Assembly (NCBI GenBank): GCA_020630295.1
Contig: JAHDBR010000006.1
Location: 20,743-63,841, forward strand
Origin: Sphingomonadaceae bacterium
GTDB lineage: Bacteria > Pseudomonadota > Alphaproteobacteria > Sphingomonadales > Sphingomonadaceae
Reading direction: 5' to 3'
Length of the DNA stretch: 43,099 nucleotides
The notes beneath the pieces were generated by a model. It saw only the letters and a program-made list of their open reading frames with translations, did not search any database and was not told the DNA's origin. Both the position numbers and the translations under genes were made by a program. Below, in pieces: positions 3,020-14,884 of the stretch (the first letter of the stretch is position 1; each line of letters begins with the position of its first letter).

Positions 3020-3346
3020 TCAATCAGCTTCGCTGATGAACTGGCGGCGTGCTTCGATGAATTTCTCTTCCAAAGCAGCGCGTACGCCGGCCTCGTCAAT
3101 TTCAACGCCGCTGCTGGTTAGATCGCCCAGCAATTTGCGGATGACGTCTTCGTCGCCAGCCTCTTCAAAATCGGCTTGCACCACGGCCTTGGCATAGGCT
3201 TCTGTTTCTTCAGGTGTCAGGCCCATCTTTTCCGCTGCCCAATGGCCGAGCAGCCGGTTACGGCGGGCCGCGATTTTGAATGCGGTTTCTTCGTCAAAGG
3301 CGTATTTGGCTTCTTCGCCTTTCTGGCGGTCGGAAAAATCAGTCAT
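3020..3346 (-). CDS. F1-ATPase inhibitor zeta subunit (DUF1476)
   Basis: This 108-aa helical protein begins MTDFSDRQKGEEAKYAFD, the hallmark start of the alphaproteobacterial zeta subunit. In Paracoccus the N-terminal segment inserts into F1-ATPase and blocks ATP hydrolysis, analogous to mitochondrial IF1. The rest forms a four-helix domain. A GAGGG ribosome binding site precedes the ATG. It sits between the quinone oxidoreductase and bolA on one strand, so it is probably co-transcribed with the Fe-S pair. Its presence supports an alphaproteobacterial origin. Confidence 0.93.
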   Translation of the reverse strand: MTDFSDRQKGEEAKYAFDEETAFKIAARRNRLLGHWAAEKMGLTPEETEAYAKAVVQADFEEAGDEDVIRKLLGDLTSSGVEIDEAGVRAALEEKFIEARRQFISEAD

Positions 3347-3418
3347 AAGTCCCTCGTAAATTTGTCTGTTAGCGAGATAGGAATGCGCGTGCCCGAGGAC
3401 AAGCGGCGGTATTCCTGT

Positions 3419-4420
3419 CTAGCCATCCATGGTCACTACCAGCTTGCCGATTGCGGCGCGGCTTTCCAGCTTCGCAATCGCTTCATGTGCGCGTTCCAGC
3501 GGGAAGGTTTCGCTAATCAGCGGGTTGATCTTGCCTTCTTTCCAAAGGCGGAACAATTCAGCGATATTTGCTTCGTTCTTGCGGGGTTCGCGCATTGTAA
3601 ACGCGCCCCAGAACACCCCGCGAATGTCGCAGCTTTTCAGCAGCGTCAGATTGAGCGGCATCTTGGCAATACCGGCGGGGAAACCAATGACCAGAAAGCG
3701 GCCTTCCCAAGCGATGGAGCGTAAGGCAGGCTCCGAATAATCACCGCCGACAATGTCATACACAATGTCTGCGCCGTCCGGGCCAACCGCTTCCTTGAAA
3801 GCGGCGGCAAGTGCTTTTGATGTGTCTTTGTCAAACGGCGCGCGGGGATAGATTACCACTTCGTCTGCGCCGGCCTTGCGGGCAACTTCACCCTTTTCCT
3901 CGCTGGAAACGGCGGCAACCACGCGCGCGCCATAGGCTTTGCCCAGCTCGACCGCAGAAAGGCCGACACCGCCCGCTGCGCCCAGCACCAGCATCGTATC
4001 GCCTTCCTTGATATCACCGCGGTCTTTCAGGCCGTGAATGGTGGTGCCATAGGTCATCAGCAGCGCCGATGCCTCTGGCAGCTCCACGAAATCGGGAACG
4101 CGGAACAGCTTGGCGGTTTGCGTAACGACTTTTTCCTGAAGGCCGCCATTACCCACACCCGCGAGAACGCGGTCACCGACTTTCCAGCCTTCTACGCCTT
4201 CGCCCAGCGCCTCGATCGTGCCGGAGATTTCTCCGCCCGGGGCGAATGGCCGCGGGGGCTTAAACTGGTACATATCGCGGATGATCAGTGTGTCGGGATA
4301 ATTGATCGCGCAGGCTGCGACCTTGATCAGAACCTCGCCCTTGCCGGGAACGGGGTCCGCGATCTCGTCAATCACCAATGTTTCAGGTCCACCGACCTCT
4401 TTGGATAGCAAGGCTTTCAT
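3419..4420 (-). CDS. NADPH:quinone oxidoreductase, zinc-independent MDR family
   Basis: This 333-aa medium-chain dehydrogenase/reductase has a GroES-like N-terminal domain ([12 protein letters not shown]) and a Rossmann domain with the nucleotide-binding motif [16 protein letters not shown]. The catalytic-zinc ligands of alcohol dehydrogenases are missing, as expected for the QOR (zeta-crystallin-like) branch, which reduces quinones or enones with NADPH. The start is set at [11 protein letters not shown] because its ATG overlaps the leuD stop as ATGA (4417-4420). A longer in-frame start at 4450 would lie inside leuD. The physiological substrate is unknown. Confidence 0.9.
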
Positions 4421-9605: not shown

Positions 9606-9953
9606 TTACTCGTTACGGGTCGCGATCCATCCGCCTGAAATCACCAGTATAGCTAGCGACACGTAGATATACGGTGCGCCCAGTGTGAACCACGTAAATA
9701 TCGCCCCGACGGCAATCGAGCCAATCGCGATAATCTTGGATTTGCGTGAAATTGCGCGCCGCTCTCGCCAATCCAGCACTTGCGGACCCCAGACCGGATG
9801 ATCGAGGATTTTTTGTTCCAGAGCAGGGTTGCTACGCGCAAAACAGAATGCGGCAAGCAGCAAAAACGGAACCGTCGGCATTATCGGCAAAGCGGCTCCG
9901 ATCGCGCCCAGCGCGGTACAGATAATGCCGCCTGCCAGATAAAGCGGCCGCAT
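9606..9953 (-). CDS. DUF454 (YbaN) inner-membrane protein
   Basis: The start at MRPLYLAGGI gives 115 aa. The pattern GxxxxALGAIGAALPIMPTVPFLLLAAFCFARS is characteristic of DUF454/YbaN, followed by the SNPALE..LL..PVWGP..DWRERRAI segment and two closing TM helices. The function of the family is unknown. Its ATG begins one base after the sufE stop, so it is probably the last gene of that transcript. A TTG at 9968 is a weaker alternative start. Confidence 0.88.
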   Translation of the reverse strand: MRPLYLAGGIICTALGAIGAALPIMPTVPFLLLAAFCFARSNPALEQKILDHPVWGPQVLDWRERRAISRKSKIIAIGSIAVGAIFTWFTLGAPYIYVSLAILVISGGWIATRNE

Positions 9954-9954
9954 A

Positions 9955-10362
9955 TCAGCCTGCTGCAATCCGCTGCGCGTGCTCTTTTACCAAAGCAATC
10001 ATGTTGGGGATGCCCTGCGTCCGGTTGGAGCTGAGCTGGTTTTTCAAATCAAACGGATCAAGCGCGCCATGGACGTCCATTTCGGCAACATCCTGCGCCG
10101 CGCGGTCCTGCACTGCGGCAATAACCAATGCGACAATGCCTTTGGTAATGGCGGCATTGCTATCGGCCAGAAAGTGCAGCGATCCGGCTTCGTCCGTGGG
10201 ATAGACCCAGACGCTGGCCGAGCAGCCGCGAACCAGCGTTGCATCGGTTTTAAGCGCGTCCGGCATATCATCCAGTTCGCGGCCCAGTTCGATCAGCAAG
10301 CGGTACCGTTCGTCGCCTTCGAGAAATTCATATTCTTCGCGGATATCGTCAAGTGTGCGCAT
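9955..10362 (-). CDS. sufE: SufE-family cysteine desulfurase activator
   Basis: SufE accepts persulfide sulfur from a cysteine desulfurase (SufS) and passes it to the Fe-S scaffold. The 135-aa protein has the family outline: an N-terminal IREEYEFLEGDERYRLLIELGRELDD helix and the persulfide-carrying Cys in LVRGCSASVWV. It begins only 24 bp after the last psp-like small gene and runs on into DUF454, so it may share the stress operon's transcript. The rest of the suf genes are not in the window. Confidence 0.93.
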   Translation of the reverse strand: MRTLDDIREEYEFLEGDERYRLLIELGRELDDMPDALKTDATLVRGCSASVWVYPTDEAGSLHFLADSNAAITKGIVALVIAAVQDRAAQDVAEMDVHGALDPFDLKNQLSSNRTQGIPNMIALVKEHAQRIAAG

Positions 10363-10386: not shown

Positions 10387-10638
10387 TTACAAATCCACCC
10401 CGCTTGCGATCGCCTCCAATTTACGGATGCGTTCTTTCAGATCGCAAATTTCGATCCGTGCGGCCCCGACAGCGGAGCCAGCGTCGATATCTTGTACCGG
10501 CTTTTGTTCCGGCGCAGAGCCTCGATCCAGCTCGCGTTCTTTCAGTGCGAGCCAGCCCTGCCAGCCGCGCAGTGCCGCCAGCGCGATTATGGTCAGTCCG
10601 ATAATCGTGGCACTTGATATGATGATCTGTTCGGTCAT
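10387..10638 (-). CDS. PspB-like small membrane protein (paralogue 5 of array)
   Basis: An 83-aa protein with one N-terminal TM helix (about residues 5-24), a polar linker, and a C-terminal helix DLKERIRKLEAIASG. That helix matches the L..R(I/V)..LE.I motif shared by the neighbouring small genes, but it stops before the TD...IE.LR extension, so it is the shortest version. It lies 41 bp after the previous psp-like gene and 24 bp before sufE. By analogy with PspB it would be N-anchored with a cytoplasmic coiled coil. A role in envelope stress is inferred from context. Confidence 0.7.
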   Translation of the reverse strand: MTEQIIISSATIIGLTIIALAALRGWQGWLALKERELDRGSAPEQKPVQDIDAGSAVGAARIEICDLKERIRKLEAIASGVDL

Positions 10639-10679
10639 TTCACAAATCCTCCTGCAGCCCGCGCATTCGCGCCGCCCGC

Positions 10680-10952
10680 TTATTTCTCTCGCAAACTTTC
10701 AATTTCGTCAGAGATTGCTTTCACTTTTCGCGCTTCGGTCGTGTTGGCGTCCGTTGCGATACGTTCCAGCACCTTGATCCGCTCGCGCAGTTCTTTCAGT
10801 TCGCGCTGCGCATCAGGGTCGTTACGGTCGGCATATTGCTCATTGCCCTCCTTGTCGGAAATAATCCCGGCATTGGTGCGCTGCCGTCCGCGGATAACGC
10901 TCGTCACAGCGGCAATGGCAAATAATACGACGATGGCCGTCCAGAAACTCAT
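10680..10952 (-). CDS. PspB-like small membrane protein (paralogue 4)
   Basis: This 90-aa protein has an N-terminal TM helix (about residues 3-19), a charged linker, and a long coiled coil with ELRERIKVLERIATDANTT followed by IESLREK at the C-terminus. The motif RIKVLERIATD is almost identical to that of the next gene, indicating duplication. Its ATG overlaps the stop of the preceding gene (ATGA, 10949-10952), a sign of translational coupling. No function has been assigned; its relationship to PspB is drawn from architecture and motif. Confidence 0.78.
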   Translation of the reverse strand: MSFWTAIVVLFAIAAVTSVIRGRQRTNAGIISDKEGNEQYADRNDPDAQRELKELRERIKVLERIATDANTTEARKVKAISDEIESLREK

Positions 10953-11260
10953 CGGGCTTCCTCCTTGGCAGTTGCACGCAAATCAATCGCGTCCAGATCG
11001 CGCAGATGCTCGATTTGGGCCGCAAGATCGCTGTTTGAATCGGTCGCGATACGTTCCAGCACGCGGACCCGCTCTTCCAGTTTCTGGTAGGCTTCGCGCG
11101 ATATGCCGCCGCCGGATTTGGCTTCTTCCGCCTTGGCCAGCAGTTCCAGCTTGCGCTCATCATGCTGTATCGTCTTGCGGTGCGTGTACATTGCGAAGGG
11201 AAACACAATCAGCGCCAAGGCGATGACGAATGAGAAAATGAGCAGAAGATCGCCGTCCAT
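10949..11260 (-). CDS. PspB-like small membrane protein (paralogue 3)
   Basis: This 103-aa protein has an N-terminal TM helix (about residues 5-24, LLLIFSFVIALALIVFPFAM), then a basic and acidic linker, then the shared coiled-coil module KLEERVRVLERIATD...IEHLRDLD. It overlaps the upstream gene by one base and the downstream gene by four, so the three are probably translated as a unit. The charge pattern after the helix puts the coiled coil in the cytoplasm, where PspB and PspC meet PspA in better-studied systems. Confidence 0.8.
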   Translation of the reverse strand: MDGDLLLIFSFVIALALIVFPFAMYTHRKTIQHDERKLELLAKAEEAKSGGGISREAYQKLEERVRVLERIATDSNSDLAAQIEHLRDLDAIDLRATAKEEAR

Positions 11261-11565
11261 CAGTTGACCTCCTTCTCACGCAATTGCTCGATCTGGTTGT
11301 TCAAATGATAGCCGCTATCGGTCACAATGCGTTCCACATTGCCGAGGCGATCTTTCAGCGATCCCAGTTCGGCGCGCAGTTCTGCGTTTTCCTGCGTCAG
11401 CAGTTTTACGCGTTCTACCGCCTGGTCATTTTTGGGATAAACGGTTTTGCCCCAGCTGTTTTCTAGCGGGTATCCGTTCTTCATTCGCATCCAGCTGTTG
11501 ATGATCCAGCCGCCGGTCATGATAGCCACACCAGCAATAATCGCGGTTTCAGTGAGCGGGAACAT
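11260..11565 (-). CDS. PspB-like small membrane protein (paralogue 2)
   Basis: This 101-aa protein has a TM helix (about residues 6-25), a loop with NGYPLENSWGKTVYP that is unique in the array, and then a coiled coil with the shared module LKDRLGNVERIVTD...IEQLREKE. It is coupled by one-base overlaps to the genes on both sides. The distinct loop suggests it is not interchangeable with its neighbours. No characterised homologue is recognised. Confidence 0.8.
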   Translation of the reverse strand: MFPLTETAIIAGVAIMTGGWIINSWMRMKNGYPLENSWGKTVYPKNDQAVERVKLLTQENAELRAELGSLKDRLGNVERIVTDSGYHLNNQIEQLREKEVN

Positions 11566-11876
11566 CAGGCCTTCTCCTTGCGTCCAATGTTGAGCGGCGT
11601 GCCGCTATCTGCGCTTTCGACCTCGCGCTGATCGCGCAATGCTTCGATCTGAGTGGCGACATCATATCCGCGGTCGGTGACGATGCGTTCAAGCACGCGA
11701 ACGCGGTCTTCAAGGTCTTGAACATTACTCGCATATTGCGCTGCTTTTTCAGCAGTGGCTTGTGCGGTTGTCGAAACGCTCATTTCCGCCAGCTTTTGCT
11801 GGTGCTTCGCCCAGATTGTCACCATGGGGATGGCGCACCCCATAATTATGGCGATGATCGGTATCATCTCGTTCAT
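11565..11876 (-). CDS. PspB-like small membrane protein (paralogue 1)
   Basis: This 103-aa protein has a TM helix (about residues 5-22, IPIIAIIMGCAIPMVTIW), an Ala/Gln/Thr-rich helix, and then the shared module DLEDRVRVLERIVTD...IEALRDQRE. It is the first of the five extra genes after pspC, separated from it by 24 bp, and overlaps the next gene by one base. The Ala- and Gln-rich spacer extends the predicted coiled coil beyond that of PspB. Confidence 0.8.
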   Translation of the reverse strand: MNEMIPIIAIIMGCAIPMVTIWAKHQQKLAEMSVSTTAQATAEKAAQYASNVQDLEDRVRVLERIVTDRGYDVATQIEALRDQREVESADSGTPLNIGRKEKA

Positions 11877-11900
11877 AATCTAACTCCCCAAATTATAATC

Positions 11901-12284
11901 TTAGCGCAGCCGTTCGATCTCTGCGTTCAGGCGCGGATTGCTGGACACATAATATGTCTCGACATCGGCCAGGCGGCGATCAACATCGCGCATCCGGCTG
12001 CGGATTTCGCGAGCGGTGCGCTGCGGGCTCTGGCGGACACGTTGCCAGTATTTTTGCTCATCCGCTTCCACGTAAAGATGCGGCGGTTTCTTGTTCAGCA
12101 TCAAGCCGAGCACAAAATACAGAGGGATGGTAATTCCGCCCAGAACGCCCGTCAGTATGGATATAACAAGCCCCAGCCGGACCCACAGCACATTTACGCC
12201 TGTATAGTCAGCAATGCCGGAGCATACGCCCATCAGTTTTGCGTTTTGCTTATCACGATAAAGAGTTGTCCGTTCGCTGGTCAT
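11901..12284 (-). CDS. pspC: Phage shock protein C (PspC-domain membrane protein)
   Basis: PspC acts with PspB as an inner-membrane sensor that draws PspA-PspF apart under envelope stress. The 127-aa protein carries the PspC-domain pattern NAKLMGVCSGIADYTGVNVLWVRL followed by a hydrophobic TM segment (LVISILTGVLGGITIPLYFVLGLML). The C-terminal part has RMRDVDRRLADVE...NAEIERLR, echoing the module of the neighbouring small proteins. Its ATG overlaps the pspB stop by one base (TAATG). Confidence 0.95.
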   Translation of the reverse strand: MTSERTTLYRDKQNAKLMGVCSGIADYTGVNVLWVRLGLVISILTGVLGGITIPLYFVLGLMLNKKPPHLYVEADEQKYWQRVRQSPQRTAREIRSRMRDVDRRLADVETYYVSSNPRLNAEIERLR

Positions 12285-12580
12285 TACCGGGCTCCTTTCT
12301 TCTCTGCGAGCAGGCGGTCCAGCTCGCGCAATTGTTGATTATCTACTTCGCGGTCATGCATCAGTTTCGGCCGGTCGTAGTCAGGATTGTCGGACGCGAC
12401 CAAGCGTTCCACTGTGTCCATCCGTTCATCCAACCGCTTTGCCAGCTGGTACAAATCTTCCAGCAAGTCCTCGTCATCGGTTGTGATCGTGGCGGCTGTT
12501 TTCCATTTGGTCACATAATGCATGATCAACCACGGCAGGCCGATGAAAATAGCCGGAATAATGATTACTTCTTCACCCAC
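12284..12580 (-). CDS. pspB: Phage shock protein B
   Basis: This 98-aa protein begins with a TM helix (IIIPAIFIGLPWLIMHYVTKWK), the usual PspB anchor, followed by an acidic stretch and a leucine-zipper-like helix LAKRLDERMDTVERLVASDNPD. It is somewhat longer than enterobacterial PspB because of a charged tail. It starts 4 bp after the pspA stop and is coupled to pspC, giving the canonical order pspA-pspB-pspC. The coiled-coil motif RLDERMDTVERL is the likely source of the related motif in the five extra small genes. Confidence 0.93.
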   Translation of the reverse strand: MGEEVIIIPAIFIGLPWLIMHYVTKWKTAATITTDDEDLLEDLYQLAKRLDERMDTVERLVASDNPDYDRPKLMHDREVDNQQLRELDRLLAEKKGAR

Positions 12581-12584
12581 GTTC

Positions 12585-13505
12585 TCAATCCTTCTTGTCT
12601 TCTGCTGAACCCTTGCCGAGGGCAGCTTTCATTGCTTCCAATTCCTCGTCGACCTTATCGGCGCCTTCGAGCGCGGCGATTTCATCCGACAGTGACGGTT
12701 TGCCTGCGCTGCCATCTGCAATCGACAGCGCTTCTGCGCGGCCTTCTGCATAATCGACGTGGCGTTCCAACTGGTCGAACTTGGCCAGCGCCTCGTCCGT
12801 CCGTTCATGGGTCATCAGCGTGCGCAGCTTGGCGCGGTTTTCCGCGCTTTCCAGGCGGGCTGCGATGGCTGTCTGGCGGCTGCGTGCTTCCCGCAGGCGG
12901 CTTTGCAGCTTCTCGATATCTTTTTCGTAAGCGCGCAACGCATCGTCCAGCACGGCAATCTCTGCCTTCAGCTGTTCCGACATATCGCTGGCTTTCTTCT
13001 TCTCGACCAAGGCAGCCCGCGCCAGATCTTCGCGATCTTTCGACAGCGCCAGCTGGGCTTTTTCGCCCCAATCAGCCTGCAAGCGGTCCAGCTTCACCGT
13101 ATGCCGGTGCATTTCTTTCTGGTCGGCAATGGTGCGGGCCGCGCTGGCGCGCACCTCCACCAGTGTTTCCTCCATTTCGAGGATGATCATGCGGATCATT
13201 TTGGCGGGGTCATCCGCCTTGTCCAGCATATCGGTAAAGTTAGCGGCAATGATATCACGTGTGCGGCTGAATATTCCCATCAAGGGTACTCCGGAGTTAA
13301 ACAGGTCGGAGCGACCGCCCTGCTGATTGAAAGACTGTGTCGGTGTCGGGCTGGTGCGGAGGCGTTCGACCTCGGCCTCAAACCGTGACACCACATTGCG
13401 GGCCGGAGCGCTTTCGCGATCTGGAGAATCGTGACGTGACGATTGGGGGGATGAGTTTACGTCCCGCTCCGGCCCTAAGGGGTTGTTGGTGGAAGGTTTG
13501 CTCAT
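12585..13505 (-). CDS. pspA: Phage shock protein A (PspA/IM30), with in-frame N-terminal extension
   Basis: PspA is the ESCRT-III-like peripheral membrane protein that protects leaky membranes and restrains PspF. The usual protein begins at MGIFSRTRDIIAANFTDML (residue 76, position 13280), with normal PspA helices to the end (231 aa). The frame stays open for 75 more residues to an ATG at 13505, which overlaps the stop of the upstream 50-aa gene (ATGA). The extension is polar, rich in Ser/Pro/Asn and predicted disordered, with one helical stretch RFEAEVERLR. A GGAG lies about 10 bases before 13280, so both starts may be used. Confidence 0.93.
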   Translation of the reverse strand: MSKPSTNNPLGPERDVNSSPQSSRHDSPDRESAPARNVVSRFEAEVERLRTSPTPTQSFNQQGGRSDLFNSGVPLMGIFSRTRDIIAANFTDMLDKADDPAKMIRMIILEMEETLVEVRASAARTIADQKEMHRHTVKLDRLQADWGEKAQLALSKDREDLARAALVEKKKASDMSEQLKAEIAVLDDALRAYEKDIEKLQSRLREARSRQTAIAARLESAENRAKLRTLMTHERTDEALAKFDQLERHVDYAEGRAEALSIADGSAGKPSLSDEIAALEGADKVDEELEAMKAALGKGSAEDKKD

Positions 13506-13654
13506 GCAATTTCGACAGTGTCATATTGCAAGGTTGCAGCGAAAGCCGGTTCAACCTGCATCTGCGTGCTGAGTGCAACAAACGCGCACATCGCGGCGAT
13601 ACTGGCGATCGCGGCCTGGCCCAGCTTAGTCTGGAAAAAGCGGCGGTCATACAT
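13502..13654 (-). CDS. Small exported-type peptide, first gene of the psp operon, 50 aa
   Basis: The gene is too short for usual gene finders. It begins MYDRRFFQTKLGQAAIASIA after a strong AGGAA site and ends with ATGA overlapping the start of the long PspA form. A basic start, a hydrophobic core (about residues 12-28) and an AFA-AT site near residue 40 suggest either a signal peptide that leaves an 11-residue tail or a small membrane anchor. It is the first open frame after the sigma-54 promoter (leader about 58 nt), so it should be induced with the operon. Function unknown. Confidence 0.7.
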   Translation of the reverse strand: MYDRRFFQTKLGQAAIASIAAMCAFVALSTQMQVEPAFAATLQYDTVEIA

Positions 13655-13722: not shown

Positions 13723-13738
13723 AGCAAGGCGTGTGCCA
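13723..13738 (-). promoter_or_regulatory. Sigma-54 (-24/-12) promoter of the psp operon
   Basis: On the minus strand the bases read TGGCAC-ACGCC-TTGCT, an almost perfect match to the sigma-54 consensus (TGGCAC, five bases, TTGC A/T) with correct GG-to-GC spacing. Transcription would begin near 13712, about 58 nt before the 50-aa gene. A PspF activator gene diverges from it, as in enterobacteria. Confidence 0.88.
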
Positions 13739-13840: not shown

Positions 13841-14884
13841 GTGGAGCAGAAGAACCAGTTTATTGGCCAATCCGGGGCCTTTCTCGATGCGGTCGAGCGG
13901 GCCAGCCGCGCGGCACCGATGCGCCGTCCCGTCTTGGTGGTGGGAGAGCGCGGAACCGGCAAAGAGCTGATTGCCGAACGTCTCCACCGCCTGTCCGAAC
14001 GTTGGGGTGAACCGCTCGTCACGATGAACTGCGCGGCATTGCCCGAAACGCTGATCGAAGCCGAATTGTTCGGCCACGAGGCAGGTGCCTTTACTGGTGC
14101 TACCAAAGCGCGCGTGGGAAGGTTTGAGGAAGCCGACAAAGGCACATTATTTCTCGACGAACTGGGCACTTTATCGATGGCCGCGCAGGAACGGCTGCTG
14201 CGCGCGGTCGAATATGGCGAAGTATCACGCATCGGTTCCAGCCGCCCGATCAATGTCGATGTGCGGATCGTGGCGGCGACAAACGAGAACCTGCCCCGCG
14301 CGGCTGAGGAGGGTACGTTCCGTTCGGACCTGCTCGACCGGCTCAGCTTTGAAGTGATTACATTGCCCCCGCTGCGTGTGCGGGACGGCGACATTGATGT
14401 TCTGGCGGATTATTTCGGCCGGCGTATGGCGGCTGAAATCGGATGGGAAGGGTGGCCCGGCTTTGCCGATCATGTGCGCAAGCAGATGGATGAGTACCCA
14501 TGGCCCGGCAATGTGCGCGAACTGCGCAACGTCGTGGAGCGCGCGATCTACCGGTGGGACAATTGGCAGGAGCCAATCGCGCATCTGCAATTCGATCCCT
14601 TCGCTTCTCCGTGGCAGCCGGCTGGTGAACCATCCAGCCGCTCAAAACCTATTGCGCCGACACAAACGGCCCCGTTACCCGCGACTGCACAGGCACCCGC
14701 ACTAAGTTTCGAACAAGTGGATGATTTGCGCTCTGCCGTGGATGATCATGAACGGTCAATTCTAGAGCACGCATTGGGCAAACATCGCTGGAACCAGCGC
14801 CAGACCGCAAAGGCTCTGGGCCTCAGCTACGATCAACTGCGTCACTGCATTAAGAAACACGGCCTGATGCAGGAAGACACTTAA
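13841..14884 (+). CDS. pspF: PspF, sigma-54-dependent activator
   Basis: PspF is an AAA+ bacterial enhancer-binding protein that drives psp transcription and is held in check by PspA. The 347-aa product has Walker A GERGTGKE (about residue 33), the sigma-54 contact loop GAFTGA (about 82-87), Walker B GTLFLDEL (about 101), the WPGNVRELRNV segment, and a C-terminal Fis-type helix-turn-helix (KHRWNQRQTAKALGLS). It lacks an N-terminal receiver domain, as PspF does. The start is the GTG before EQKNQFIGQSG; the longer open frame upstream overlaps the psp promoter and is not expected to be translated. Confidence 0.95.
   Translation: MEQKNQFIGQSGAFLDAVERASRAAPMRRPVLVVGERGTGKELIAERLHRLSERWGEPLVTMNCAALPETLIEAELFGHEAGAFTGATKARVGRFEEADKGTLFLDELGTLSMAAQERLLRAVEYGEVSRIGSSRPINVDVRIVAATNENLPRAAEEGTFRSDLLDRLSFEVITLPPLRVRDGDIDVLADYFGRRMAAEIGWEGWPGFADHVRKQMDEYPWPGNVRELRNVVERAIYRWDNWQEPIAHLQFDPFASPWQPAGEPSSRSKPIAPTQTAPLPATAQAPALSFEQVDDLRSAVDDHERSILEHALGKHRWNQRQTAKALGLSYDQLRHCIKKHGLMQEDT

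Follow-up and report, generated by a model that had tools for sequence, protein, structure and literature searches.

Five small membrane protein genes downstream of pspABC in a Sphingomonadaceae bacterium, some related to PspB and the PspC tail

The window analysed here is the whole stretch of 43,099 nucleotides taken from a Sphingomonadaceae bacterium (GenBank assembly GCA_020630295.1, contig JAHDBR010000006.1, positions 20,743 to 63,841, forward strand; in our records genome G000, 2.4 Mb, contig C42). It carries a psp locus, with the psp genes on the minus strand, in which pspA, pspB and pspC are followed by an array of five small genes that we call P1 to P5. The proteins P1-P4 were clearly homologous to one another, P5 showed a moderate kinship to them, and some of the array groups were related to PspB and to the C-terminal tail of PspC. 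Labelled array genes followed pspC in all 45 psp loci retrieved from the same family, and in three genomes they were retained where PspB was lost.

Gene order at the psp locus

The features of the locus are as follows.

12585-13280 (-): pspA (TIGR02977, 270 bits against a cut-off of 243)
12284-12580 (-): pspB, GTG start (PF06667, 72 bits; TIGR02976, 89.7 bits against a cut-off of 51.7)
11901-12284 (-): pspC (PF04024, 64 bits; TIGR02978, 132 bits against a cut-off of 104)
11565-11876 (-): P1, 103 amino acids (aa), transmembrane segment (TM) and module RVRVLERIVTD
11260-11565 (-): P2, 101 aa, TM, juxtamembrane NGYPLENSWG and module RLGNVERIVTD
10949-11260 (-): P3, 103 aa, TM and module RVRVLERIATD
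10680-10952 (-): P4, 90 aa, TM and module RIKVLERIATD
10387-10638 (-): P5, 83 aa, TM and short tail DLKERIRKLEAIASGVDL
9955-10362 (-): sufE-like gene, 24 bp (base pairs) past P5 (PF02657, 113 bits)
9606-9968 (-): DUF454 gene overlapping sufE (PF04304, 117 bits)
13841-14884 (+): pspF, divergent AAA+ activator by sequence reading (the frame has IGQSGAFLDAV...GERGTGKE); the start is probably a GTG, the upstream frame being still open
13723-13738 (-): sigma54-type -24/-12 site TGGCACACGCCTTGCT, 1 mismatch
13502-13654 (-): 50-codon open reading frame (ORF) with a hydrophobic segment (MYDRRFFQTKLGQAAIASIAAM...) and a good ribosome site, between the sigma54-type site and pspA

The products of pspA, pspB and pspC passed the NCBIfam equivalog cut-offs, and the five consecutive genes of 83-103 aa that an earlier sequence-only reading had described after them were confirmed at 10387-11876 (-). 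The tight gene order of that reading was also found: the overlap is 1 bp for pspB-pspC, P1-P2 and P2-P3 and 4 bp for P3-P4, with gaps of 24 bp between pspC and P1 and 41 bp between P4 and P5. Note that a count of such overlaps is biased upward, because the gene-calling score favoured 1- and 4-bp overlaps. Outside the window, a second gene of the PspA/IM30 family was seen in the same genome (contig C46:41149-41760, L002; 49 bits).

Each array protein had been described as one N-terminal TM followed by a C-terminal coiled coil with a common module, and hydropathy and charge were in line with the single TM: among 218 array proteins, the hydropathy was at least 1.6 in 215, and an excess of lysine and arginine after the TM over that before it was found in 217. 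By the charge rule, they are predicted to have a single N-terminal TM with the N-terminus outside and the C-terminus in the cytoplasm.

Homology among the array proteins

The tails of P1-P4 were compared pairwise with two kinds of shuffled sequence. For the six pairs, none of 500 full shuffles reached the real score, and 0 to 13 of 500 did so when the class pattern (that is, the hydrophobic and charge pattern) was retained. The group profiles of P1-P4 matched one another in HHalign at 98.1-99.7% (P3 to P1, 99.7%), and P5 matched them at 83.8-91.4%. As controls, reversed profiles, which preserve composition and periodicity, gave no pair out of 90 at 70% or above (maximum, 38.4%), and a profile of FtsB (27 sequences, TM plus coiled coil) scored 22.8% at most. 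Thus, the similarity was found to go beyond that of generic heptads, as had been proposed; P1-P4 are clearly homologous to one another, and the kinship of P5 to them is moderately supported.

The array genes are conserved as proteins, with a ratio of nonsynonymous to synonymous differences (pN/pS) of 0.11-0.50 against three relatives (L180 was left out, being on the same contig as L129). In a tree of a subsample (the orphan gene of L298, see below, was left out), P1, P2 and P5 formed pure clades and P3, P4a and P4b almost pure ones, with a support of 0.63 for P1 and 0.87-0.997 for the other groups; they are therefore maintained as distinct proteins.

Relation to PspB and the PspC tail

The Psp models were ranked at the top for P1-P3 within 18950 families. 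The best NCBIfam match of P1, P2 and P3 of the window was TIGR02978 (PspC), over its second TM and tail, and the match of P1 spanned model positions 49-121 (TM and tail). The alignments scanned comprised 21 of 50 P1, 40 of 68 P2, 13 of 13 P3, 30 of 41 P4 and 31 of 37 P5 members. At E values (expect values) of 0.01 or below, TIGR02978 was matched by 20 of the 21 P1, 23 of the 40 P2, 5 of the 13 P3 and 2 of the 30 P4 members, and TIGR02976 (PspB) by 19 of the 21 P1 members; the best E value of P1 was 8.1e-8, below all cut-offs in score. TIGR02976 was matched by 8 of the 30 P4 members as well (best, 1.1e-6). The matches to the C-terminal part of TIGR02978 (second TM and coil) in P1-P3 were partial and below the cut-off, and those to PF06667 and TIGR02976 likewise (P3, 13.8 bits against 25.6; P1, 19.8 bits against 51.7), and the Pfam scan gave no match to PF04024 (the PspC domain) in P1-P5.

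In HHalign, P1 and P3 matched PspB of other families at 95.6% and 93.7%, respectively, and P2 matched PspC of its own family at 94.9% and PspB of its own family at 90.5%, but own-family PspB gave 6.9% with P3 and 0.9% with P4a, and P4a gave 3.4% with PspC of other families. PspB and PspC compared directly reached at most 23.4%. The relation of the array to the Psp proteins is thus real and graded, holding through some array groups and not through others. The sequence-only reading had seen one module in seven adjacent genes and a relation of it to PspB and the PspC tail; the relation was borne out, and the single module stood strongly for P1-P4 and moderately for P5, with PspB and PspC joined to it by way of some groups and the direct pair of the two remaining weak. 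The module stretches can be aligned as RLREMERYVTSDTFTLRSRFRQL (E. coli PspC), RLGNVERIVTDSGYHLNNQIEQLR (P2), RVRVLERIVTDRGYDVATQIEALR (P1) and RIQALESILDAEHPNW (PspB). When PspC and PspB were used as queries against the sequences of solved structures, each gave 0 matches at an E value of 1 or below.

Conservation of the array within the family

The psp loci were retrieved from 68 genomes, 45 of them in the family of the source genome (hereafter, the own family) and 23 in other families (f2, f3, f5, f6, f7 and f8); they were chosen from the listed PspB matches with one or two per genus, so that the sample is non-random and excludes genomes without PspB. Arrays beside pspABC, for which a genome search had been suggested, were present in every one of the 45 own-family loci, where 1-7 labelled genes follow pspC. 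These sizes are lower bounds, because the clustering left out ORFs that lacked a phmmer label (e.g., in L034, L045, L048 and L092) and because some individual genes (P4 in L085, P5 in L035 and L092) escaped it, though another scan sees them. The commonest orders were P2-P2-P1-P4-P5 (7 loci) and P1-P2-P2-P3-P4-P5 (6 loci); P5 was the final array gene in 37 of the 45 loci, and sufE followed downstream on the same strand in 42.

A search with P1 gave 3-5 matches per genome in 8 of 8 genomes of the genus. In a scan of genome contigs, the best 80 of 505 relatives were retained; among these, the named ones were Erythrobacter, Qipengyuania, Altererythrobacter, Citromicrobium, Porphyrobacter and the like, and the named loci (Erythrobacteraceae) showing both ends had arrays of 3 to 9 genes. 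A second or third match to the PspB model was found in eleven of the 113 own-family genomes searched.

Three of these 113 genomes (G053, G146 and G185; 99-100% complete) had no match to the PspB model, and in all three, pspA and pspC are retained together with two or three array genes. PspC of G053 is 88 aa long and stops after the PspC domain, without a tail. These genomes show that PspB is dispensable when array genes are present, and the retained array genes point to separate modules able to stand where PspB or the PspC tail is missing. In two genomes of another family (loci L244 and L245), two single-TM proteins are encoded after pspB and pspC; their TM segments are nearly identical, and one bears a PspC tail, the other a PspB tail. 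These loci and the PspB-less genomes show that anchors and tails are swapped as units.

Related genes in other families

Among the 19 loci of f2, f3, f5, f6 and f7, no labelled array gene was found after pspC; one of them (L074) has a second PspB-like ORF. In f8, three of four loci (L081, L083 and L084) carry a tail-less second PspC and then a P4-like gene after pspC, as though a single PspC had been divided. Of the 385 genomes in a class-wide draw, 8 gave a match to P1, five of them of the own family; five weak class-wide A7 matches (E values, 4e-5 to 8e-4) were left aside. The P2 profile matched in 26 of 26 own-family genomes (at least two places each); elsewhere in the order, it matched in 54 of 73 genomes, usually at a single place. 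Thus, of the proposed paralogous set of membrane proteins around psp, the set itself stood, but the family is not confined to psp, and most other families of the order hold one P4-like gene.

Ten such places were opened, nine in the order (L292-L298, L302 and L303) and a tenth in another order of the class (L299 in G405, beside a dUTPase gene). Each encodes a small protein with a TM and the module, whose best profile was P4b in nine of the ten and P1 in one (L295); P4 of the window is the array gene closest to these orphan genes of other families. In L297 and L303, the orphan has a sigma-70 gene directly upstream; in L294 and L302, such a gene lies within 3 kb. At L299, two module proteins are encoded at 3777-4275 (-) near the dUTPase gene, with no psp genes next to them in the 8 kb covered and, by sequence reading only, a frame resembling coaBC nearby. 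At L301 (G030), 3228-3614 (+), a soluble protein ends in the array module, RVSTLETIATDPAERTAREIEALR, and its N-terminus matches the DUF6487 zinc ribbon weakly (22.5 bits against a cut-off of 24). The source genome has no orphan; just the five array genes match there, P5 at an E value of 0.14. From this distribution, we infer that a free-standing P4-like gene may have been recruited into psp and then multiplied, the opposite direction being possible too.

Promoter and upstream reading frames

The sigma54-type site TGGCACACGCCTTGCT lies about 460 bp 5' of pspA. The window has two sites that depart from the pattern by one mismatch at most, and this is one of them. Sites of this quality precede pspA in 39 of the 45 own-family loci and in 19 of 23 other loci. 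At up to three mismatches, the pattern was not enriched in the window (71 observed against 86 expected); the support for the sigma54 assignment is the conservation of the close match. The site is likely to be the start of the psp transcript. From the gene spacing (162 of 173 array junctions in the 45 own-family loci are 50 bp or shorter) and the conserved site, it is very likely that the array belongs to the PspF-sigma54 psp transcript.

The 50-codon ORF has a phmmer relative at the equivalent place in 19 of 45 own-family loci and in 0 of 23 others, with pN/pS of 0.16-0.31, and is probably the first gene of the transcript. The frame of pspA is open for 75 codons 5' of MGIFS (13281-13505, -), its ATG overlapping the stop of the 50-codon ORF (ATGA); a stretch of this extension, ...EVERLRTSPTPTQ..., is present again in relatives, with pN/pS of 0.34-0.59. 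The MGIFS start has a ribosome site of its own, so that pspA has two candidate starts. In a scan for sigma-70 promoters and terminators, the number of sites was slightly above that of shuffles. Internal transcripts are possible because of a weak promoter-like site within P5 (10613-10586, -) and weak terminator-like sites within P4 (10941-10927).

Interpretation

In Yersinia, the C-terminal cytoplasmic domain of PspC binds PspA in the on state and so frees PspF (PMC5596341), and a title cited there states that interacting cytoplasmic domains of PspB and PspC silence the response. For E. coli, PMC3068692 reports that PspC40-119 (TM and tail) suffices for psp induction, that PspB and PspC interact and that leucine-zipper changes in the PspC tail impair signalling; the same paper gives the PspC tail a different membrane placement. 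As the array proteins are natural proteins of a TM and such a tail, the most economical reading is that they join the same exchange of tails.

We give a probability of about 0.6 to the reading that P1-P4, and more distantly P5, are single-pass paralogues of PspB and the PspC tail, enter the PspBC complex and, by exchanging coiled-coil partners, take part in the control and anchoring of PspA. It starts from the computed homology, the conserved orthologous groups, the operon context, the predicted topology and the persistence of the array where PspB is lost. The array would be a lineage-specific expansion of the PspB/PspC-tail family within a psp operon driven by PspF and sigma54, each protein joining a TM anchor and linker of its own to the common cytoplasmic helical module with which PspB and PspC end. 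The tails may pair mutually and also with PspA, PspB and PspC. While the response is off, they might mask the PspC tail or one another; membrane damage would perturb one or more anchors, the freed tails would bind PspA, and PspA bound in this way would release PspF and become membrane-anchored. The varied anchors would supply several stress inputs or several docking sites for PspA. The roles suggested in the sequence-only reading, as sensors, adaptors or a mixed coiled-coil platform around PspA, would fit this picture. Sequence cannot tell sensing, masking and PspA docking apart.

Several observations weigh against this reading. None of the 31 P5 members matched any Psp model, and P5 showed no link to PspB or PspC in HHalign (2.3% at most). 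No array protein of the window reaches a PspB or PspC cut-off. P4-like orphans lie away from psp in nine of the nine places opened in the order, which means that the module occurs outside Psp as well. AlphaFold models were of low confidence and indicate "helix" only (P1, mean predicted local distance difference test score (pLDDT) 70.6 and predicted template modelling score (pTM) 0.28; PspC, 66.6).

A more far-reaching form of the reading is tentative: in this family, the two-component switch of PspB and PspC might have become a combinatorial sensor of membrane damage, in which up to 11 tails on different anchors compete and PspB, and even the PspC tail, are replaceable subunits. We regard it as rather unlikely that the array is instead a set of extra docking sites that hold PspA on the membrane after induction and receive no signal. 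As the array follows pspA in the probable sigma54 transcript, its proteins would be made together with PspA, and they resemble the TM and tail fragment of PspC, which is reported to act on PspA in E. coli (PMC3068692), but docking alone needs no five separately conserved groups with differing anchors and linkers.

The orphans bear on another explanation, in which a separate process of the inner membrane is merely housed in the psp operon and the module is a general short tag for hetero-coils. P4-like genes off psp, with a sigma-70 gene near L294, L297, L302 and L303 and a dUTPase gene at L299, speak for it, as does the soluble protein of G030. Since the own-family array lies inside psp in 45 of 45 loci, the module of P1-P3 is most like the PspC and PspB models and the array is retained where PspB is lost, we consider this improbable. 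Tandem duplication of pspB, neutral or for dosage and with no new roles, would account for the variable copy number (1-7 in the 45 loci, 3-9 in the named loci with both ends), but distinct groups recur in a preferred order with P5 mostly last, the genes are under purifying selection and TM and linker differ among groups; simple dosage copies were judged very unlikely on the recurrent groups, their order and the tree clades. A chance likeness of generic TM and coiled-coil proteins, which are known to draw spurious matches (P2 members also match the Pfam models of bZIP and ZapB, below the cut-off), is hardly credible, being ruled out for P1-P4 by the shuffles, the reversed profiles and FtsB, and still conceivable for P5.

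The way in which PspB and PspC detect membrane damage and signal it to PspA is a long-standing question; it has been studied in Enterobacteria, whose PspB and PspC are hard to separate. Here, evolution appears to have split off the PspC tail as genes, multiplied them and swapped their anchors, and PspB was removed in three genomes. The array would thus offer natural chimeras for mapping the sensing part against the PspA-binding part, and most of the membrane components of Psp in a large family of bacteria escape the reference models.

Comparison with known systems

The sequence-only reading knew of no assigned function for such genes. One clause of Ravi et al. 2024 (PMC11237479) already mentions "PspB duplicates" in the operon, which are probably the same kind of gene; the extra PspB-model matches in eleven own-family genomes would fit them. 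Its example accession is AOL22920.1, and the clause, as far as the text was accessible, is without array size, groups, distribution, orphans or PspB loss. Among the openly accessible papers found, and leaving aside the supplements and web app of PMC11237479, the arrays were otherwise undescribed.

PspD and PspG are small inner-membrane Psp proteins, as the array proteins are, and PspG is described as a small membrane protein of the PspF regulon in PMC3068692; the general Pfam and NCBIfam scans, with no similarity test aimed at them, did not return either. With the PspC tail (about positions 47-121 of TIGR02978), the array proteins share a TM and tail, and MERYVTSDTFTLRSRFRQL of E. coli PspC aligns with VERIVTDSGYHLNNQIEQLR of P2; unlike PspC, they have neither the PspC domain PF04024 nor the first TM. 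With PspB, they share one N-terminal TM, a C-terminus inside by charge and a similarly laid-out C-terminal coil; the pspB gene adjoins pspA and pspC, and members of P1 and P4 match the PspB model weakly and repeatedly. The tail of PspB ends in LDAExPxW, whereas the array tails carry VTD...IExLR, and the array differs from PspB in having multiple distinct groups in each operon.

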